63,987 bases of DNA from Thiogranum sp. (GTDB lineage: Bacteria; Pseudomonadota; Gammaproteobacteria; DSM-19610), in the NCBI GenBank assembly GCA_024636585.1, contig JAGXGS010000019.1:1-63987 (forward strand), given 5' to 3'. Below, in pieces: positions 658 to 5,130 of the stretch (within the stretch, counting starts at the first letter, position 1; each line of letters opens with the position of its first letter). The position numbers and the translations under genes were made by a program. The notes beneath the pieces are model-generated. The model was given only the letters and a program-made list of their open reading frames with translations. It did not search any database and was not told the DNA's origin.

Positions 658-1260
658 CTACAGCTGCTGAAAATACGCCGTCTCTTCGCTGCTGAGCGCC
701 GGCAAGGTGTCTTCGGCGGGTTGATCGGCCGGACTGACATGGCTGACAGCTGCGGTCTTTGGCGTCTCCCGTACCGGCCTCGGTACAGGCGCCGTGCTCA
801 ACGGGCGTTCGGCGTCGATCTGATCAACCAGCGGTTCCAGCCACAGACCGGCTTCGCCATTGACGCGCAGCGCCTTGAACTGAAACAGGCGCAGGCTCGC
901 GCAGCGTCCAAGTATGGCGCTGGATCCAGGGGGAAGTTGTGCGCTTACCACCACCAGCCTGGGCGGCTGCTCCCGATGTTGCAGAGCGTCATAGACCTGG
1001 TTCACCCAGGCCAGTGCGCTGGACAGCTTTTCTACCGCCATCAGACCGTTGAGCAGGGCGGCTTCACTGTGCTCGCTGTCAAAGCTGATAATTACCGGGT
1101 GTAGCTCAGAATCAACCAGCAGCAGCGGGTGCCCCTCCCAGGGCAGCTTGGCTTCGAGAACCCGGGCACCACGGCCTGCGAGTTGCTCTGCGGCATCGAT
1201 CAACAGGACCCGCAGTTGCTCCGGGCTGCAGCGGGCCTCGCGATGAATGCTCAGTTTCAT
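658..1260 (-). CDS. unknown protein, last gene of the ParA-CBM48 module, 200 aa
   Basis: I do not recognise the family. The start chosen is the ATG at 1260 (MKLSIHREARC), whose ATGA overlaps the stop of the preceding gene and implies translational coupling; a longer frame upstream runs only over that gene. Residues 1-145 look like one alpha/beta domain (HPLLLVDSELHPVIISFD followed by a helix EAALLNGLMAVEKL and strand RLVVVSAQ). That pattern is faintly like a PD-(D/E)XK nuclease fold, but no catalytic triad is evident. The last 50 residues are a Pro/Ala/Glu-rich tail. It is predicted to be cytoplasmic. Its position fourth in a MerR/ParA operon is the only functional clue. Confidence 0.65.
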   Translation of the reverse strand: MKLSIHREARCSPEQLRVLLIDAAEQLAGRGARVLEAKLPWEGHPLLLVDSELHPVIISFDSEHSEAALLNGLMAVEKLSSALAWVNQVYDALQHREQPPRLVVVSAQLPPGSSAILGRCASLRLFQFKALRVNGEAGLWLEPLVDQIDAERPLSTAPVPRPVRETPKTAAVSHVSPADQPAEDTLPALSSEETAYFQQL

Positions 1261-1952
1261 GGGCTTTCCTGTACGTCGTCGTCTGCTGCGCAGGCATGGA
1301 AAAATTCGCTGCTGATCAGGCGTTCGCTGATGCGCATCAGGAAATTGTTCCGGTGATGATCTGCTGGACCGTGTTCCGGCGTGACCTGTTCCGGCAGAAA
1401 TCCGAGATTGAGCAGCGGCACGTCCAGGTAGCGCAGCGTGCCCACGGCCAGTTTGCGAAAGTACCGCCACGCTGAATGCTGATCACGCGGCCCTACCAGT
1501 ACGATTCCGATTTCGGGCGGCGCCGCCCGCGCTGACAGGAATTTGATGCGCTGGTAAGCCCGGCGCACCGCATCGAGATTGGCGGGAATCAGCAATACCA
1601 CATGGCTGAAGTCCTGCGCACGAATCGTGGCAGCGGTAATTACGGGCAGAATGCAGTAGCTGCTGGTGGAGCCGGTGTCGGTGACTGTCGGGCTGAGGCC
1701 GGCCGGCTGATCGTTGTGCTCATCGAGATGGCAGATGACGCTGGCGTGACCGCGTTCGGTCAGCAACTGGCACAGATCATGGGTAATCCAGCTTTGGGCG
1801 GGATCGTCGAGTAAAAAAGGAATCGCCCGGCAAAAATCGTTCGGCTTACTGGTATCTGGCATGTCGCTCAAATAACTGTCGCTGATCGATGCCAGGCGAT
1901 TGGAGGAAACGGGTTTGCGTCGCCACGCGGGATTCAGTTCCATCTTGGTCAT
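1257..1952 (-). CDS. P-loop-less MinD/FlhG-like protein, 231 aa
   Basis: The second half (about residues 115-200: FSHVVLLIPANLDAVRRAYQ, IGIVLVGPRDQHSAWRYF, LRYLDVPLLNLGFLPE) follows the pattern of the C-terminal half of MinD/FlhG ATPases. In that family a DTPAG strand, a helix, a VVNxV strand and a GYIPED element occur in this order. The N-terminal part shows no KGGxGKT deviant Walker A motif, so it is probably a non-hydrolysing relative (inference). It starts at 1952 with TAATG coupling to the upstream ParA gene and overlaps the next gene by 4 bp. It may partner the active ParA. The fold assignment rests on my reading alone. Confidence 0.6.
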   Translation of the reverse strand: MTKMELNPAWRRKPVSSNRLASISDSYLSDMPDTSKPNDFCRAIPFLLDDPAQSWITHDLCQLLTERGHASVICHLDEHNDQPAGLSPTVTDTGSTSSYCILPVITAATIRAQDFSHVVLLIPANLDAVRRAYQRIKFLSARAAPPEIGIVLVGPRDQHSAWRYFRKLAVGTLRYLDVPLLNLGFLPEQVTPEHGPADHHRNNFLMRISERLISSEFFHACAADDDVQESP

Positions 1953-3061
1953 TATAGGTGCACCGGTACTTGTAACAAGGAGTTGATGCCGCCAAGTTCG
2001 TTCGGAATCTCAGCGGGATTAGTGGGATCGTGCTGCCATTTCCCGTCAATAATCAGTCGGTATTCATAGACACCAGGTTCGGCAGTGAAGACTTTCTGCC
2101 AGTGACCGTCCAGCTTGCGAGTCTCTATATCATGATCGGGAATCCAGTTGTTGAAGTCGCCTGCCAGCTGCAGGCGCCGGCAGTCGATATCGTCGAAGGT
2201 AAGCACGATCATCTGCCGTGCTGCTACTGGATTCACTCGCCCCATGGTGCTGCCCTCTTGTGGTGTTGTAACGGTCATGTCCAGCGGGTTTCGCGATGGT
2301 GCTGTTTGTGCACCCGCTTCGAGGACTTCATCCGCCAGGCGTTGATAATCCATGGCTGCGGTGCAGTCCGGCGCATAGCGATTCAATGGCTTGCCGATGT
2401 AAGCCGCTTCGCGGATGCGCACCGTGTGTCGAATGCGCACTTCACTTACGGCCACCGGCAACTGGTCGCGGATCTGCTCCAGCACGGTGTGCGCGAATCG
2501 GGTATGCAGATCGAACATCGTCGGCAACACCGTTACGGGCAGATTCAACTGATACTTCTGGCATAAAAGATTCACAATATCCTGCAGTTGGTGAATTCCA
2601 TCCAGCGCAAACAGGCTTGCCTCCACTGGACTGATCACCTGCTGCGCCGCCCGCAGTGCGTTGATCGACAGCAGACCCAGCGATGGAGGGCAATCGATTA
2701 CTGCGTAATCGTATGCCGCGCCGAACGGTTCGAGTTGTTCCAGCAGCAGCCGTTCCCGTCCCGGCTGGCCTGCCAGCCGCGCTTCTATTGTCGCCAGCAG
2801 GATGTTGGCCGCCACCAGATCAACACCTGCTACCACATCCTTCAGTATGACGTCCGGCAAAATGGCGTCGTCACAAAATACTTCGTACAAACCGGGGAGT
2901 TCCCGTTCACCTATACCCAGCCCCAGCGAAGCATGACCCTGCGGGTCCATGTCTATCAGCAGTACCCGCTTGTCGCGTTGTCCCAACTCGGCTGCCAGGT
3001 TAATGGCCGTAGTGGTCTTTCCGCATCCACCTTTCTGGTTCGCAATAGCAATGGTATTCAT
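1952..3061 (-). CDS. ParA-family ATPase fused to a C-terminal AMPK-type glycogen-binding (CBM48) domain, 369 aa
   Basis: Residues 1-250 are a ParA/Soj ATPase. The deviant Walker A motif is KGGCGKTTT (10-18), the DMDPQGHAS switch is at 38-45, and Walker B is VIDCPPSL (121-128). A polar linker follows (about 251-282). Residues about 283-367 form an AMPK/CBM48 early-set domain, with LAGDFNNW, the GVYEYRLIIDGKW hairpin, DPTNPAEIPNELGG and the closing INS. The tryptophans and asparagine that bind alpha-glucan in AMPK beta are present. The start is ATG 3061, preceded by GGAG at 8 nt. No parB follows. The gene sits between a MerR-like regulator and the MinD-like protein. Inference: it positions or senses something linked to a polyglucan. 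Confidence 0.88.
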   Translation of the reverse strand: MNTIAIANQKGGCGKTTTAINLAAELGQRDKRVLLIDMDPQGHASLGLGIGERELPGLYEVFCDDAILPDVILKDVVAGVDLVAANILLATIEARLAGQPGRERLLLEQLEPFGAAYDYAVIDCPPSLGLLSINALRAAQQVISPVEASLFALDGIHQLQDIVNLLCQKYQLNLPVTVLPTMFDLHTRFAHTVLEQIRDQLPVAVSEVRIRHTVRIREAAYIGKPLNRYAPDCTAAMDYQRLADEVLEAGAQTAPSRNPLDMTVTTPQEGSTMGRVNPVAARQMIVLTFDDIDCRRLQLAGDFNNWIPDHDIETRKLDGHWQKVFTAEPGVYEYRLIIDGKWQHDPTNPAEIPNELGGINSLLQVPVHL

Positions 3062-3164: not shown

Positions 3165-3620
3165 TCAGGCGTATTCCTCCGCTTGCTCCATGGCAACAGG
3201 AAACAACTCCGCTTGCTGCGGCTGCTGCTGTTGCAACTGCTCCACTTCCCGCACCAGTTCGGCGATCGGAAACACCCATTCCTGACCGGAGAGCGCATCG
3301 AAAGCACGCTCTCCATGAAAAACCAGCACCACATCGCCAGTCACAACCAGTGACAATTCAGCCAACGGTCGGTTGGCGTGCGGTAAAAATCCGGTGAGAG
3401 ACTGTAGACACTTGCGAATGCGCTGCAGCGAGACTTTCGCTTCCAGCAGGCGTTTGGCCGCGCGAAGCGCCACGAGATCGGTGAATGAATAGCGGGCGTG
3501 ACCGCCCTCGGTATAGCTGTTGGGAGTGACCAGCCCGGTCTTGCGCCAGTAGCTGAGCTGGCGACTGGTCAGGCCGGTAAGGGCTGCGACCTGCTGACGA
3601 TTGAATAGTGTTTGTGTCAC
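3165..3620 (-). CDS. MerR-like winged-helix regulator, 151 aa
   Basis: The first 75 residues are a MerR-type DNA-binding domain: a helix-turn-helix at about 7-28 (VAALTGLTSRQLSYWRKTGL), the wing with RYSFTDLVALRAAKRLL, and the second helix pair. The remaining 75 residues have no cysteine-based metal site and end in a Q-rich segment (about 128-136). A metal sensor of the MerR/CueR type is therefore unlikely. It is the first gene of the minus-strand parA-CBM48 module and probably autoregulates through the dyad at 3692-3715. The ligand is unknown. Confidence 0.75.
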   Translation of the reverse strand: MTQTLFNRQQVAALTGLTSRQLSYWRKTGLVTPNSYTEGGHARYSFTDLVALRAAKRLLEAKVSLQRIRKCLQSLTGFLPHANRPLAELSLVVTGDVVLVFHGERAFDALSGQEWVFPIAELVREVEQLQQQQPQQAELFPVAMEQAEEYA

Positions 3621-3833: not shown

Positions 3834-4181
3834 CTATTTCGAAATGGTGCGCGGCTGGTTGGATGTCACCAGACCGCTCTGACTGGCAAACCATGCGGCT
3901 ACATCTTGCATGTCCTGTTCGGAAAGTCCGACTGTCTGTCCTGCCATAATCGGATTGAGGCGGGAACCGTCCCGATAGTGACGCAGTGCCATGACCATGT
4001 AATCGGCATACTGTCCTGCCAGGCGCGGGAACATTTCATTCTCGCCGTTACCCTCGAGCCCGTGGCATGCCTGACACTTTGCAGCAGAAATTTCCTTGCC
4101 GGCTTCGATATCACCAGCGGCCTGTACGCTTGAGCTCGCGCAAATCACGGCGGCAAGCAGAAGTTTATTCATAGAGTTCAT
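3834..4181 (-). CDS. small periplasmic c-type cytochrome, 115 aa
   Basis: A signal peptide (MNSMNKLLLAAVICASSSVQA) is followed by one haem site, CQACH. The later methionine in NPIMAG is the probable distal ligand. This is class I cytochrome c of the c553/half-c4 type. The start is ATG 4181, preceded by GAGGGAG; a longer frame to 4196 lacks this site. It lies 26 bp downstream of a paralogous cytochrome and after a DsrE-like gene, so the three probably form one periplasmic electron-transfer unit. The redox partner is not known. Confidence 0.85.
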   Translation of the reverse strand: MNSMNKLLLAAVICASSSVQAAGDIEAGKEISAAKCQACHGLEGNGENEMFPRLAGQYADYMVMALRHYRDGSRLNPIMAGQTVGLSEQDMQDVAAWFASQSGLVTSNQPRTISK

Positions 4182-4207
4182 ATTTCGCTCCCTCACAACA
4201 ATTCTAT

Positions 4208-4537
4208 TTATTTGCCATAGCCGGCAAAGAAGGCAGCGATATCCTGCATATCCTGATCGCTCAGAGTCTGTGCCTGTGCCTGCATGGTCGAATGCGAACG
4301 CTGGCCGGTTTTATAAGCCTGCAATGCAGTTACCAGATAGGCAGCGTGTTGACCGCCCAGCTTCGGCACGTGGTAAGTCGGATAGACGTTATTGTAACCA
4401 GGTACGCCGTGGCAGCCCATGCAGGTAAAGGCTTTGACTTCGCCCGCGCCCGCATCGCCTTCAGCGAGGCTGATTGCCGGCGCCGCAAGCGTAGCAGCCA
4501 GCAGCATCGCCAGGCTGGAAATATAAGTTGTTTTCAT
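4208..4537 (-). CDS. small periplasmic c-type cytochrome, 109 aa
   Basis: A signal peptide ends near SLAEGDAGAG. The haem-binding CMGCH follows, and the STMQAQ methionine is the likely axial ligand. The overall pattern matches the class I c553/c4-half cytochromes and is paralogous to the next gene (shared LSDQDMQDIAAFFA / LSEQDMQDVAAWFA). The start is ATG 4537 with GAGGATT directly upstream; the longer frame to 4657 would bury the signal peptide. It follows the DsrE-like gene after a 116-bp gap. Confidence 0.85.
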   Translation of the reverse strand: MKTTYISSLAMLLAATLAAPAISLAEGDAGAGEVKAFTCMGCHGVPGYNNVYPTYHVPKLGGQHAAYLVTALQAYKTGQRSHSTMQAQAQTLSDQDMQDIAAFFAGYGK

Positions 4538-4653
4538 AATCCTCGCTCTCGTGGTTATACGTAAATAAACATCACCTGTTGTGATGTGGCCGCACGCCAG
4601 CCGTGCTTTTGCATCGTTGTCCTGCGTGCGGTCGGGCGGCAGTATACCAGAGC

Positions 4654-5130
4654 TCACCAGCTGATATAGCTGTAACCCTGCTCTTGCAGCTGCATGAGAT
4701 CATCAGCGCCAACTTCCACGACTTCCACGAAATCGAGCATATCGTCCTCGGTCCAGCCCAGCGTCTTCATGGTGTTGCCGCAGGCGTGAAACGAAACGCC
4801 ATAGGCAGCGAGGCTGGAAACGCGCTCACGCACTTCCTGGCTGACCGGGCGTTCGGGACGCCGGGCAAGTATATGGATGCCAGGACCGATGGCGGTGACC
4901 ACGATGTGAATGTTATCCACGTGCTGGCGCAACATTGCGCCGACCGAGAAAAGGACGTGGTCCATGTAGTCCGGATCAGCCTTGTTGAACTGGTATACCA
5001 GCTTGTGGTCCGGTTCGCCGAAGAAAAACGGATCATCAGGCTGGGCAGCGCTGTTGCCGGATAGCAGTGCGAGTCCTGGTACGGCAGTCAGGCATTGCAG
5101 GAACCGGCGGCGGCGTATCGGTGTTTTCAT
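4654..5130 (-). CDS. Tat-exported DsrE-like protein, 158 aa
   Basis: The N-terminus RRRRFLQCLTAVPGLALLSG is a twin-arginine signal with a hydrophobic stretch and an AAQ cleavage site. The mature part follows the DsrE/DsrF-like small alpha/beta fold: HKLVYQFNKAD, IHIVVTAIGPGIHIL, VSFHACGNTMKTLGW. The single conserved cysteine in FHACGNT is where many DsrE-like proteins carry a sulfur-handling cysteine. Together with two cytochromes c, it suggests a periplasmic sulfur or redox role (inference). The substrate is unknown. Confidence 0.75.
   Translation of the reverse strand: MKTPIRRRRFLQCLTAVPGLALLSGNSAAQPDDPFFFGEPDHKLVYQFNKADPDYMDHVLFSVGAMLRQHVDNIHIVVTAIGPGIHILARRPERPVSQEVRERVSSLAAYGVSFHACGNTMKTLGWTEDDMLDFVEVVEVGADDLMQLQEQGYSYISW

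Follow-up and report, generated by a model that had tools for sequence, protein, structure and literature searches.

What does a ParA ATPase do when it is joined in one polypeptide to a predicted glycogen-binding domain? The question is raised by a gene of Thiogranum sp. (Gammaproteobacteria; assembly GCA_024636585.1, contig JAGXGS010000019.1), which lies in a stretch of 63,987 nucleotides that was analysed as a whole and is called the window here. ATPases of the ParA family are responsible for the placement of plasmids and chromosomes and of protein cargos such as carboxysomes. An earlier inspection of the bare letters (the sequence-only reading) had noticed a ParA ATPase fused to a carbohydrate-binding module (CBM) of the CBM48/AMPK beta type, and had suggested that the pair serves the placement or inheritance of a polyglucan-linked cargo, or a glucan-sensitive control of a positioning ATPase. 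We favour, as probable, the reading that the fusion belongs to a positioning system of the ParA type, and that the cargo which it moves is an alpha-glucan store (most likely glycogen) to which the CBM is predicted to bind. The frame is encoded on the minus strand, from an ATG at 3061 to a stop at 1952 (369 aa), and comprises three parts:

2312..3061, minus strand: ParA-type Walker ATPase domain, residues 1-250 (AAA_31, 8ray, invariant Walker residues)
2192..2311, minus strand: interdomain linker, residues 251-290, length-variable among homologues
1955..2191, minus strand: predicted CBM48/AMPK-beta-type glycogen-binding domain, residues 291-369 (PF16561, 1z0n, W306 and W342)

Both domains scored above their Pfam cut-offs, AAA_31 over residues 1-174 (E 1.9e-49, 168.4 bits against a cut-off of 27) and AMPK1_CBM (PF16561) over residues 293-365 (E 4.1e-9, 36.9 bits against 26.8). 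Thus the domain search that had been suggested as a check bore out the two-domain frame, for which the sequence-only reading had given no strand, and the C-terminal part did score as a CBM48. A sequence search of the PDB matched ParA/Soj chains (8ray with residues 4-247, E 1.4e-49), the AMPK beta-1 chain 1z0n (residues 295-365, E 7.2e-8) and the SEX4 chains 3nme and 4pyh (residues 281-364). The ParA motifs that had been named, KGGCGKTTT and VIDCPPSL, are both present in the translation. Of AMPK beta we take W100, K126, W133, L146, T148 and N150 to be the glucan contacts; their counterparts in the window are W306, R335, W342, L356, G358 and N360, i.e. four of the six contacts (both Trp, Leu and Asn) are unchanged, with a conservative exchange of Lys for Arg and a Gly in place of Thr. 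The retention of glucan-contacting Trp and Asn residues thus stands with W306, W342 and N360, on the assumed contact roles. A structure prediction, also suggested earlier, was made with AlphaFold2 for a homologue from Nitrospirota (L024). It gave two confidently folded parts with a low-confidence linker between them, residues 255-273 having a predicted local distance difference test score (pLDDT) below 50.

The host genome is a 2.6 Mb draft of 93 contigs that is 83% complete, and in such a genome a sequencing or assembly error could have joined two separate genes. The same architecture is, however, encoded at 63 loci from many genomes and phyla as one frame that runs uninterrupted through the linker. 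This excludes chance or an assembly error, and we regard the artefact, which had been named as a possible refutation, as having a negligible probability. The fused set was drawn from the best 80 of 149 genome-contig stretches and a search of related genomes; once duplicates and CBM-less ParA proteins had been taken out, at least 63 loci were left (L071 and L078 were dropped from 65 aligned rows for want of a CBM). Their record titles point to at least six phyla (Gammaproteobacteria, Nitrospirota, Desulfobacterota, Acidobacteria, Omnitrophota and Planctomycetota), and there are further single metagenome-assembled genomes (MAGs) titled Poribacteria, Auribacter or unassigned. Among the matches listed, the closest named proteins were from MAGs called Thiogranum and Thiohalobacter. 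The linker varies from 23 to 389 residues among the 63 homologues. Two Nitrospirota fusions, L027 (6001-8157) and L026 (5929-8097), have their ParA and CBM parts about 370-390 residues apart, and in L027 the intervening stretch includes tandem acidic repeats (EDDEELLAAD).

Conservation extends to the residues on which both activities would depend. K10, K15, D37, D39 and D123 of the ATPase are identical in all 63 fused rows; the deviant Walker A motif with its signature Lys (KGGxGKT) and the Walker A' and Walker B aspartates place the protein in the ParA branch of the ParA/MinD family. On the CBM side, Trp is found at 306 and at 342 in 63/63 homologues and Arg or Lys at 335 in 62/63; position 360 is Asn in 58 rows and Asp in the other five, and position 356 is Leu in just 13 of the 63 rows and otherwise mostly Phe or Tyr. 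At the DxRT position, which presumably corresponds to the DNA-binding Arg of Soj, Arg is present in 46 of the 53 rows of alignment A2 and His in seven, the window among them; this alignment covers 53 of the 63 fused rows, ten long-linker or similar homologues having been left out.

Strong similarity to ParA would also be expected if the protein were an ordinary chromosome or plasmid partition ATPase that has gained a CBM. We consider this very improbable. The host has a separate ParA (L002) with a neighbour in the ParB cluster, the representative of which (L076) is a ParB according to Pfam, and members of that cluster occur in none of the 63 fused loci. Moreover, the architecture is conserved across phyla. 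Coverage of 80% of the fusion protein was reached by none of the phage records and, among the best 5000 plasmid records, by only four, one of which (Vibrio, residues 1-309) ends before most of the CBM.

The fusion is the second gene of an operon in the order MerR, ParA-CBM, partner, third protein, with the following features around it:

3165..3620, minus strand: MerR-type regulator, upstream of ParA-CBM (PF13411, E 1.6e-16)
1257..1952, minus strand: partner, 231 aa, whose ATG overlaps the ParA-CBM stop (TAATG)
1866..1898, minus strand: partner N-terminal motif RLASISDSYLS, residues 19-29, a proposed ParA-activating peptide
658..1260, minus strand: third protein, 200 aa, with a NucS/EndoMS-like PD-(D/E)XK-type fold and a C-terminal peptide
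661..696, minus strand: C-terminal peptide of the third protein, LSSEETAYFQQL (alignment A5)

The N-terminal motif was scored by one written rule in the gene next to the fusion. A motif-bearing gene was found there in 50 of the 63 fused loci (e.g. RLGRGLEDISHYFIS), the bodies of these proteins otherwise differing. The motif reads RRLGRGLEDISHYFIS in Nitrospirota, KKSLGRGLDDISDIFLS in Desulfobacterota, RRLARGLEDVSYLFLS in Acidobacteria and RLASISDSYLS in the window. The same rule matched 26 of 1348 non-partner open reading frames (ORFs) of at least 150 aa, and at least eight of these 26 are partners from duplicate or ParA-less loci. The ParB of L076 (Pfam ParB_N, E 9.9e-36) begins VVKRGLGRGLDALL and has LGRGL in common with the Nitrospirota form; to judge from its sequence, the partner motif resembles the ParB peptide that activates ParA. 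In carboxysome positioning, the first 20 residues of McdB are reported to be both required and enough for the contact with McdA, and a basic N-terminus is reportedly common among partners of this ATPase class (PMC12204374). When ParA-CBM of L024 was read through its stop into the first codons of the partner, both domains folded in AlphaFold2 and the motif was left undocked with a pLDDT below 50, in a monomer that has no dimer pocket.

Related genomes with and without the ATPase provide a natural experiment on this motif. In the genus of the window (17 genomes) the fusion was found in ten genomes and the CBM alone in five, and one genome of a sister genus also has the CBM alone; in G006 and G012, both incomplete, neither turned up. 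In all six CBM-only genomes the CBM lies between MerR and the partner, with the third protein next. This is not an effect of contig ends, since G004 and G008 are single contigs. In the latter (locus L108) three short remnants of ParA survive between MerR and the CBM, in the same sequence as in the intact ATPase. A tree was built on MerR, the partner minus its N-terminus, the third protein and the CBM. The ParA-less L105 is sister to the ParA-bearing L093 and L094 (support 100; with L092, 96) and the ParA-less L108 is sister to the ParA-bearing L010 (support 100); L107 falls outside the genus and L064, L106 and L109 are weakly placed (support 34-50). If the ATPase was only ever lost, the tree as drawn implies five losses, two of them strongly supported. 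The motif is intact in all ten ParA-bearing related genomes and destroyed in four of the six ParA-less ones (L105, L106, L107, L109), so that every genome with a ruined motif is also one that lacks the ATPase. Because it mostly decays where ParA is lost, the motif appears to serve ParA.

The CBM behaves differently. Between L010 and L108 its nonsynonymous divergence (pN) is 0.010 and its synonymous divergence (pS) 0.66, with dN/dS about 0.006 at a near-saturated dS; for the partner body dN/dS is about 0.06 and for the first 42 codons of the partner about 0.31. In the measured pairs pN of the CBM is 0.010-0.020, as against 0.055-0.094 for ParA and the partner body. Thus the CBM is under strong purifying selection in the one pair with and without ParA that was measured, and both Trp are kept in all six ParA-less copies. 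Since the CBM is conserved after the loss of ParA, it should have a job that is independent of ParA.

Is this job connected with glycogen? In the host genome two glgA and two glgB scored over the cut-off, which points to two glycogen gene sets; the copies are on contigs C11, C49, C54 and C86. The ten fused genomes of the window's genus have glgB in every case and glgA in nine. Outside the genus, both genes accompany the fusion in all ten fused Gammaproteobacteria, as compared with 17/38 (glgA) and 18/38 (glgB) in unfused relatives, a set that includes the CBM-only genome G017 (p about 0.003, Fisher test with kinship ignored). Across phyla, 50 fused genomes were counted; L027 and L047 were left out, and 11 fused loci (window, L006-L011, L092-L095) were counted separately. 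By record title the counts were:

Gammaproteobacteria: glgA 10/10, glgB 10/10
Nitrospirota: glgA 6/6, glgB 5/6
Acidobacteria: glgA 6/6, glgB 6/6
Desulfobacterota, including MAGs titled Deltaproteobacteria: glgA 2/12, glgB 2/12
Planctomycetota: glgA 0/11, glgB 2/11
Five other genomes: glgA 5/5, glgB 4/5

Canonical glycogen synthesis was rejected as a universal companion of the fusion, glgA and glgB each being over the cut-off in 29 of the 50 genomes. Nine more of the 12 Desulfobacterota have a long sub-threshold GlgA-like match, and an alpha-glucan phosphorylase match was found in 8 of the 11 Planctomycetota. In six Desulfobacterota (G073, G076, G080, G087, G089 and G105) several short ORFs, each about 100 aa long, match the GlgB model at positions ~20-80, which would fit a frequent occurrence of free-standing CBM48-like proteins in this group.

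Some fused genomes are thus without canonical glycogen genes over the cut-off, and this is what one would expect if the CBM48 fold were a protein-protein module for the partner or the third protein, with glucan not involved. CBM, partner and third protein do stay together after ParA loss, and the CBM is more conserved than ParA and the partner body, as a busy interface would be. A mere protein interface would not, however, explain why the Trp pair is present in 63/63 fused and 6/6 ParA-less copies, nor why glgA and glgB go with the fusion in every gammaproteobacterial genome counted outside the genus. We therefore consider this explanation improbable.

In Gammaproteobacteria the fusion is flanked by recognisable relatives of the window's MerR and partner; the Nitrospirota loci have the MerR relative, and L026 and L027 the partner relative too. 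The partner body varies by phylum. A profile of the gammaproteobacterial partners (A3, 15 copies) matched FleN (8pb9 and 5j1j, E 1.7e-5, profile positions 112-196) and also two designed proteins (E 3e-4 to 4e-4), so that part of the body resembles, in sequence, the MinD-type ATPase FleN/FlhG in its C-terminal half. A P-loop motif (KGG..GK) is absent from the sequence of the window partner, which also matched no Pfam or NCBIfam family. The Omnitrophota partner L031 matched Pfam CbiA (MinD/ParA domain, E 4.1e-6); Nitrospirota partners gave weak Pfam results (L021 ParA, E 0.13; L024 none), and their MinD-like reading was made by eye. Acidobacterial partner bodies can be aligned with the third protein (17-23% identity), and L019 encodes partner and NucS-like third protein as a single chain. 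The same may hold for L032 and L051, whose partners are long, and a 381-aa ORF of L013 matches the third protein.

The third protein had no sequence match in the PDB. Its AlphaFold2 model (21 sequences) reached a mean pLDDT of 87.2, and the best Foldseek matches of the model were repair endonucleases of the NucS/EndoMS type, with E from 3.3e-4 to 4.1e-3 and TM-scores of about 0.3-0.4 (2vld, E 3.3e-4, and 5gke, E 6.8e-4, both with a TM-score of about 0.4). At the place of E-x-K, which we take to be the catalytic PD-(D/E)XK motif of NucS/EndoMS, the window protein reads S-F-D in an alignment by eye; because the motif thus appears to be lost, the third protein is taken as a non-catalytic relative. 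All 16 gammaproteobacterial rows of alignment A5 end in the pattern L(S/T/N)..E...F.(Q/H/E)(L/V), which is absent from the five acidobacterial rows. This conserved C-terminal peptide looks like a second docking peptide. Upstream of the operon, at 3834-5130 on the minus strand, the window encodes two small c-type cytochromes and a DsrE-like protein. These genes recur upstream of the operon in many related genomes, perhaps merely as a stable neighbourhood.

A FleN-like partner body and a MerR neighbour would fit a regulatory system, in which the CBM reads the glucan supply and alters the ATPase activity or DNA binding of ParA, and some other cargo is tied to the energy state. The CBM of AMPK beta reports on glycogen, and here the CBM is in cis on the ATPase. 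Yet six ParA-less genomes keep the CBM, the partner and the third protein, so that the CBM cannot be solely a regulator of ParA, and the neighbourhoods, in which most genes are unannotated, offered no conspicuous alternative cargo. Such a glucan-sensing switch, the second alternative of the sequence-only reading, is a possibility to be taken seriously, albeit an unlikely one.

The reading that we prefer, a positioning system for an alpha-glucan store, could work as follows. As its family membership suggests, ParA-ATP dimers would sit on the nucleoid. The C-terminal CBM48 would grip a glucan particle by weak, many-sided contacts, for which its conserved contact residues argue. The partner body would be located on the same particle, from which its basic N-terminal motif could reach the ParA dimer in the manner of ParB and McdB; the motif, by its likeness and its correlated loss, is expected to trigger ATP hydrolysis and release from DNA. 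Cycles of capture and release would then spread the glucan particles over the nucleoid and let both daughters inherit a share. Several lineages keep the CBM, the partner body and the third protein after ParA loss, and hence these proteins probably also act without ParA. As the core persists without the ATPase, ParA would be a positioning motor that joined a glucan-associated complex. In its full form, i.e. a dedicated ATP-driven machine in at least six phyla, with a glucan-binding ParA, an activator bearing a ParB-like peptide and a core that outlives the motor, which tethers glycogen to the nucleoid and shares it between daughters, we judge this model to stand about evenly between right and wrong. 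The placement of a polyglucan cargo, as the sequence-only reading had put it, is thereby retained as the favoured alternative, on the strength of the ParB-like motif, its decay without ParA, the conserved Trp pair and the glycogen genes. It has to be amended in that the unit is the operon and not one protein, and that the ParA half is dispensable, as in the six genomes.

Several observations weigh against glycogen positioning. In the known ParA systems, to our knowledge, the cargo is held by the partner and not by ParA; a cargo domain in cis is thus unusual and could mean regulation. In 13 of the 63 fused loci, nine of them from Planctomycetota, the next gene lacks the motif; these include two near-matches (L039 and L050) and two loci without a next gene in that direction. 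Two ParA-less loci, L064 and L108, keep the motif, and the comparison of 10/10 ParA-bearing with 2/6 ParA-less genomes (Fisher p 0.008) ignores kinship; because of the short branch that L108 shares with L010, its loss of ParA may be recent. Canonical glgA is below the cut-off in 21 of the 50 fused genomes, including all 11 Planctomycetota. No glycogen gene was seen in the operon, nor was one noticed beside the fusions, where Pfam was run only on the window neighbours and on ten partner and third proteins. Finally, the fused and unfused gammaproteobacterial sets were drawn from different collections, and the small or incomplete genomes of the unfused set lower its glg counts.

Five Planctomycetota fusions (L049, L054, L058, L059 and L068) have linkers of 92-164 residues and no adjoining motif-bearing gene. 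Their partner, if any, is encoded elsewhere.

Parts of this arrangement are found in known systems. With ParABS (Soj/Spo0J) it shares the ParA fold and Walker residues and, in several phyla, a basic, aliphatic LGRGL-like start of the next gene, which follows ParA and is its presumed activator. Unlike in ParABS, the next gene in the window has no ParB-type family match, ParA carries a CBM48, the motif runs on as (E/D)DIS..FLS, and the host's own ParA and ParB are encoded elsewhere in the genome. AMPK beta and plant SEX4 have a CBM48 of the same Pfam family with the same Trp pair; there it is part of a kinase complex or a phosphatase, here of a bacterial ParA ATPase. The partner profile corresponds to the C-terminal half of the MinD-like flagellar regulator FlhG/FleN, but the window partner has an N-terminal motif and lacks the P-loop motif. 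PhaF and PhaM link another storage granule, that of polyhydroxyalkanoate, to the nucleoid and ensure its even inheritance; by description this is a different polymer, and no ATPase takes part. In McdAB a ParA-family ATPase likewise positions a cargo other than DNA (presumed in our case), and the basic N-terminus of McdB is reported to be the ATPase contact (PMC12204374), to which the motif of the present partner would be the candidate counterpart; here, however, it is the ATPase that carries the candidate domain for cargo binding, and the presumed cargo is a polysaccharide.

In the open-licence literature searched we found no description of a ParA-CBM48 fusion and no report of a polysaccharide as cargo of ParA. 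The fusion operon would therefore be of the ParA cargo-positioning type, with possibly a new class of cargo. Glycogen in E.coli reportedly accumulates at the old pole because it is inherited there, displaces the nucleoid and skews division (PMC12706056), and in csrA mutants glycogen at the old pole is thought to exclude the chromosome, the replicative life being short (PMC4836754). E.coli K-12 provides a ready assay for glycogen spreading. The operon, which is found in many bacteria, is a candidate for a machinery that positions the glycogen store of the cell and divides it up, and, if this is true, a glycogen-spreading motor would be an evolved answer to the problem of old-pole glycogen.

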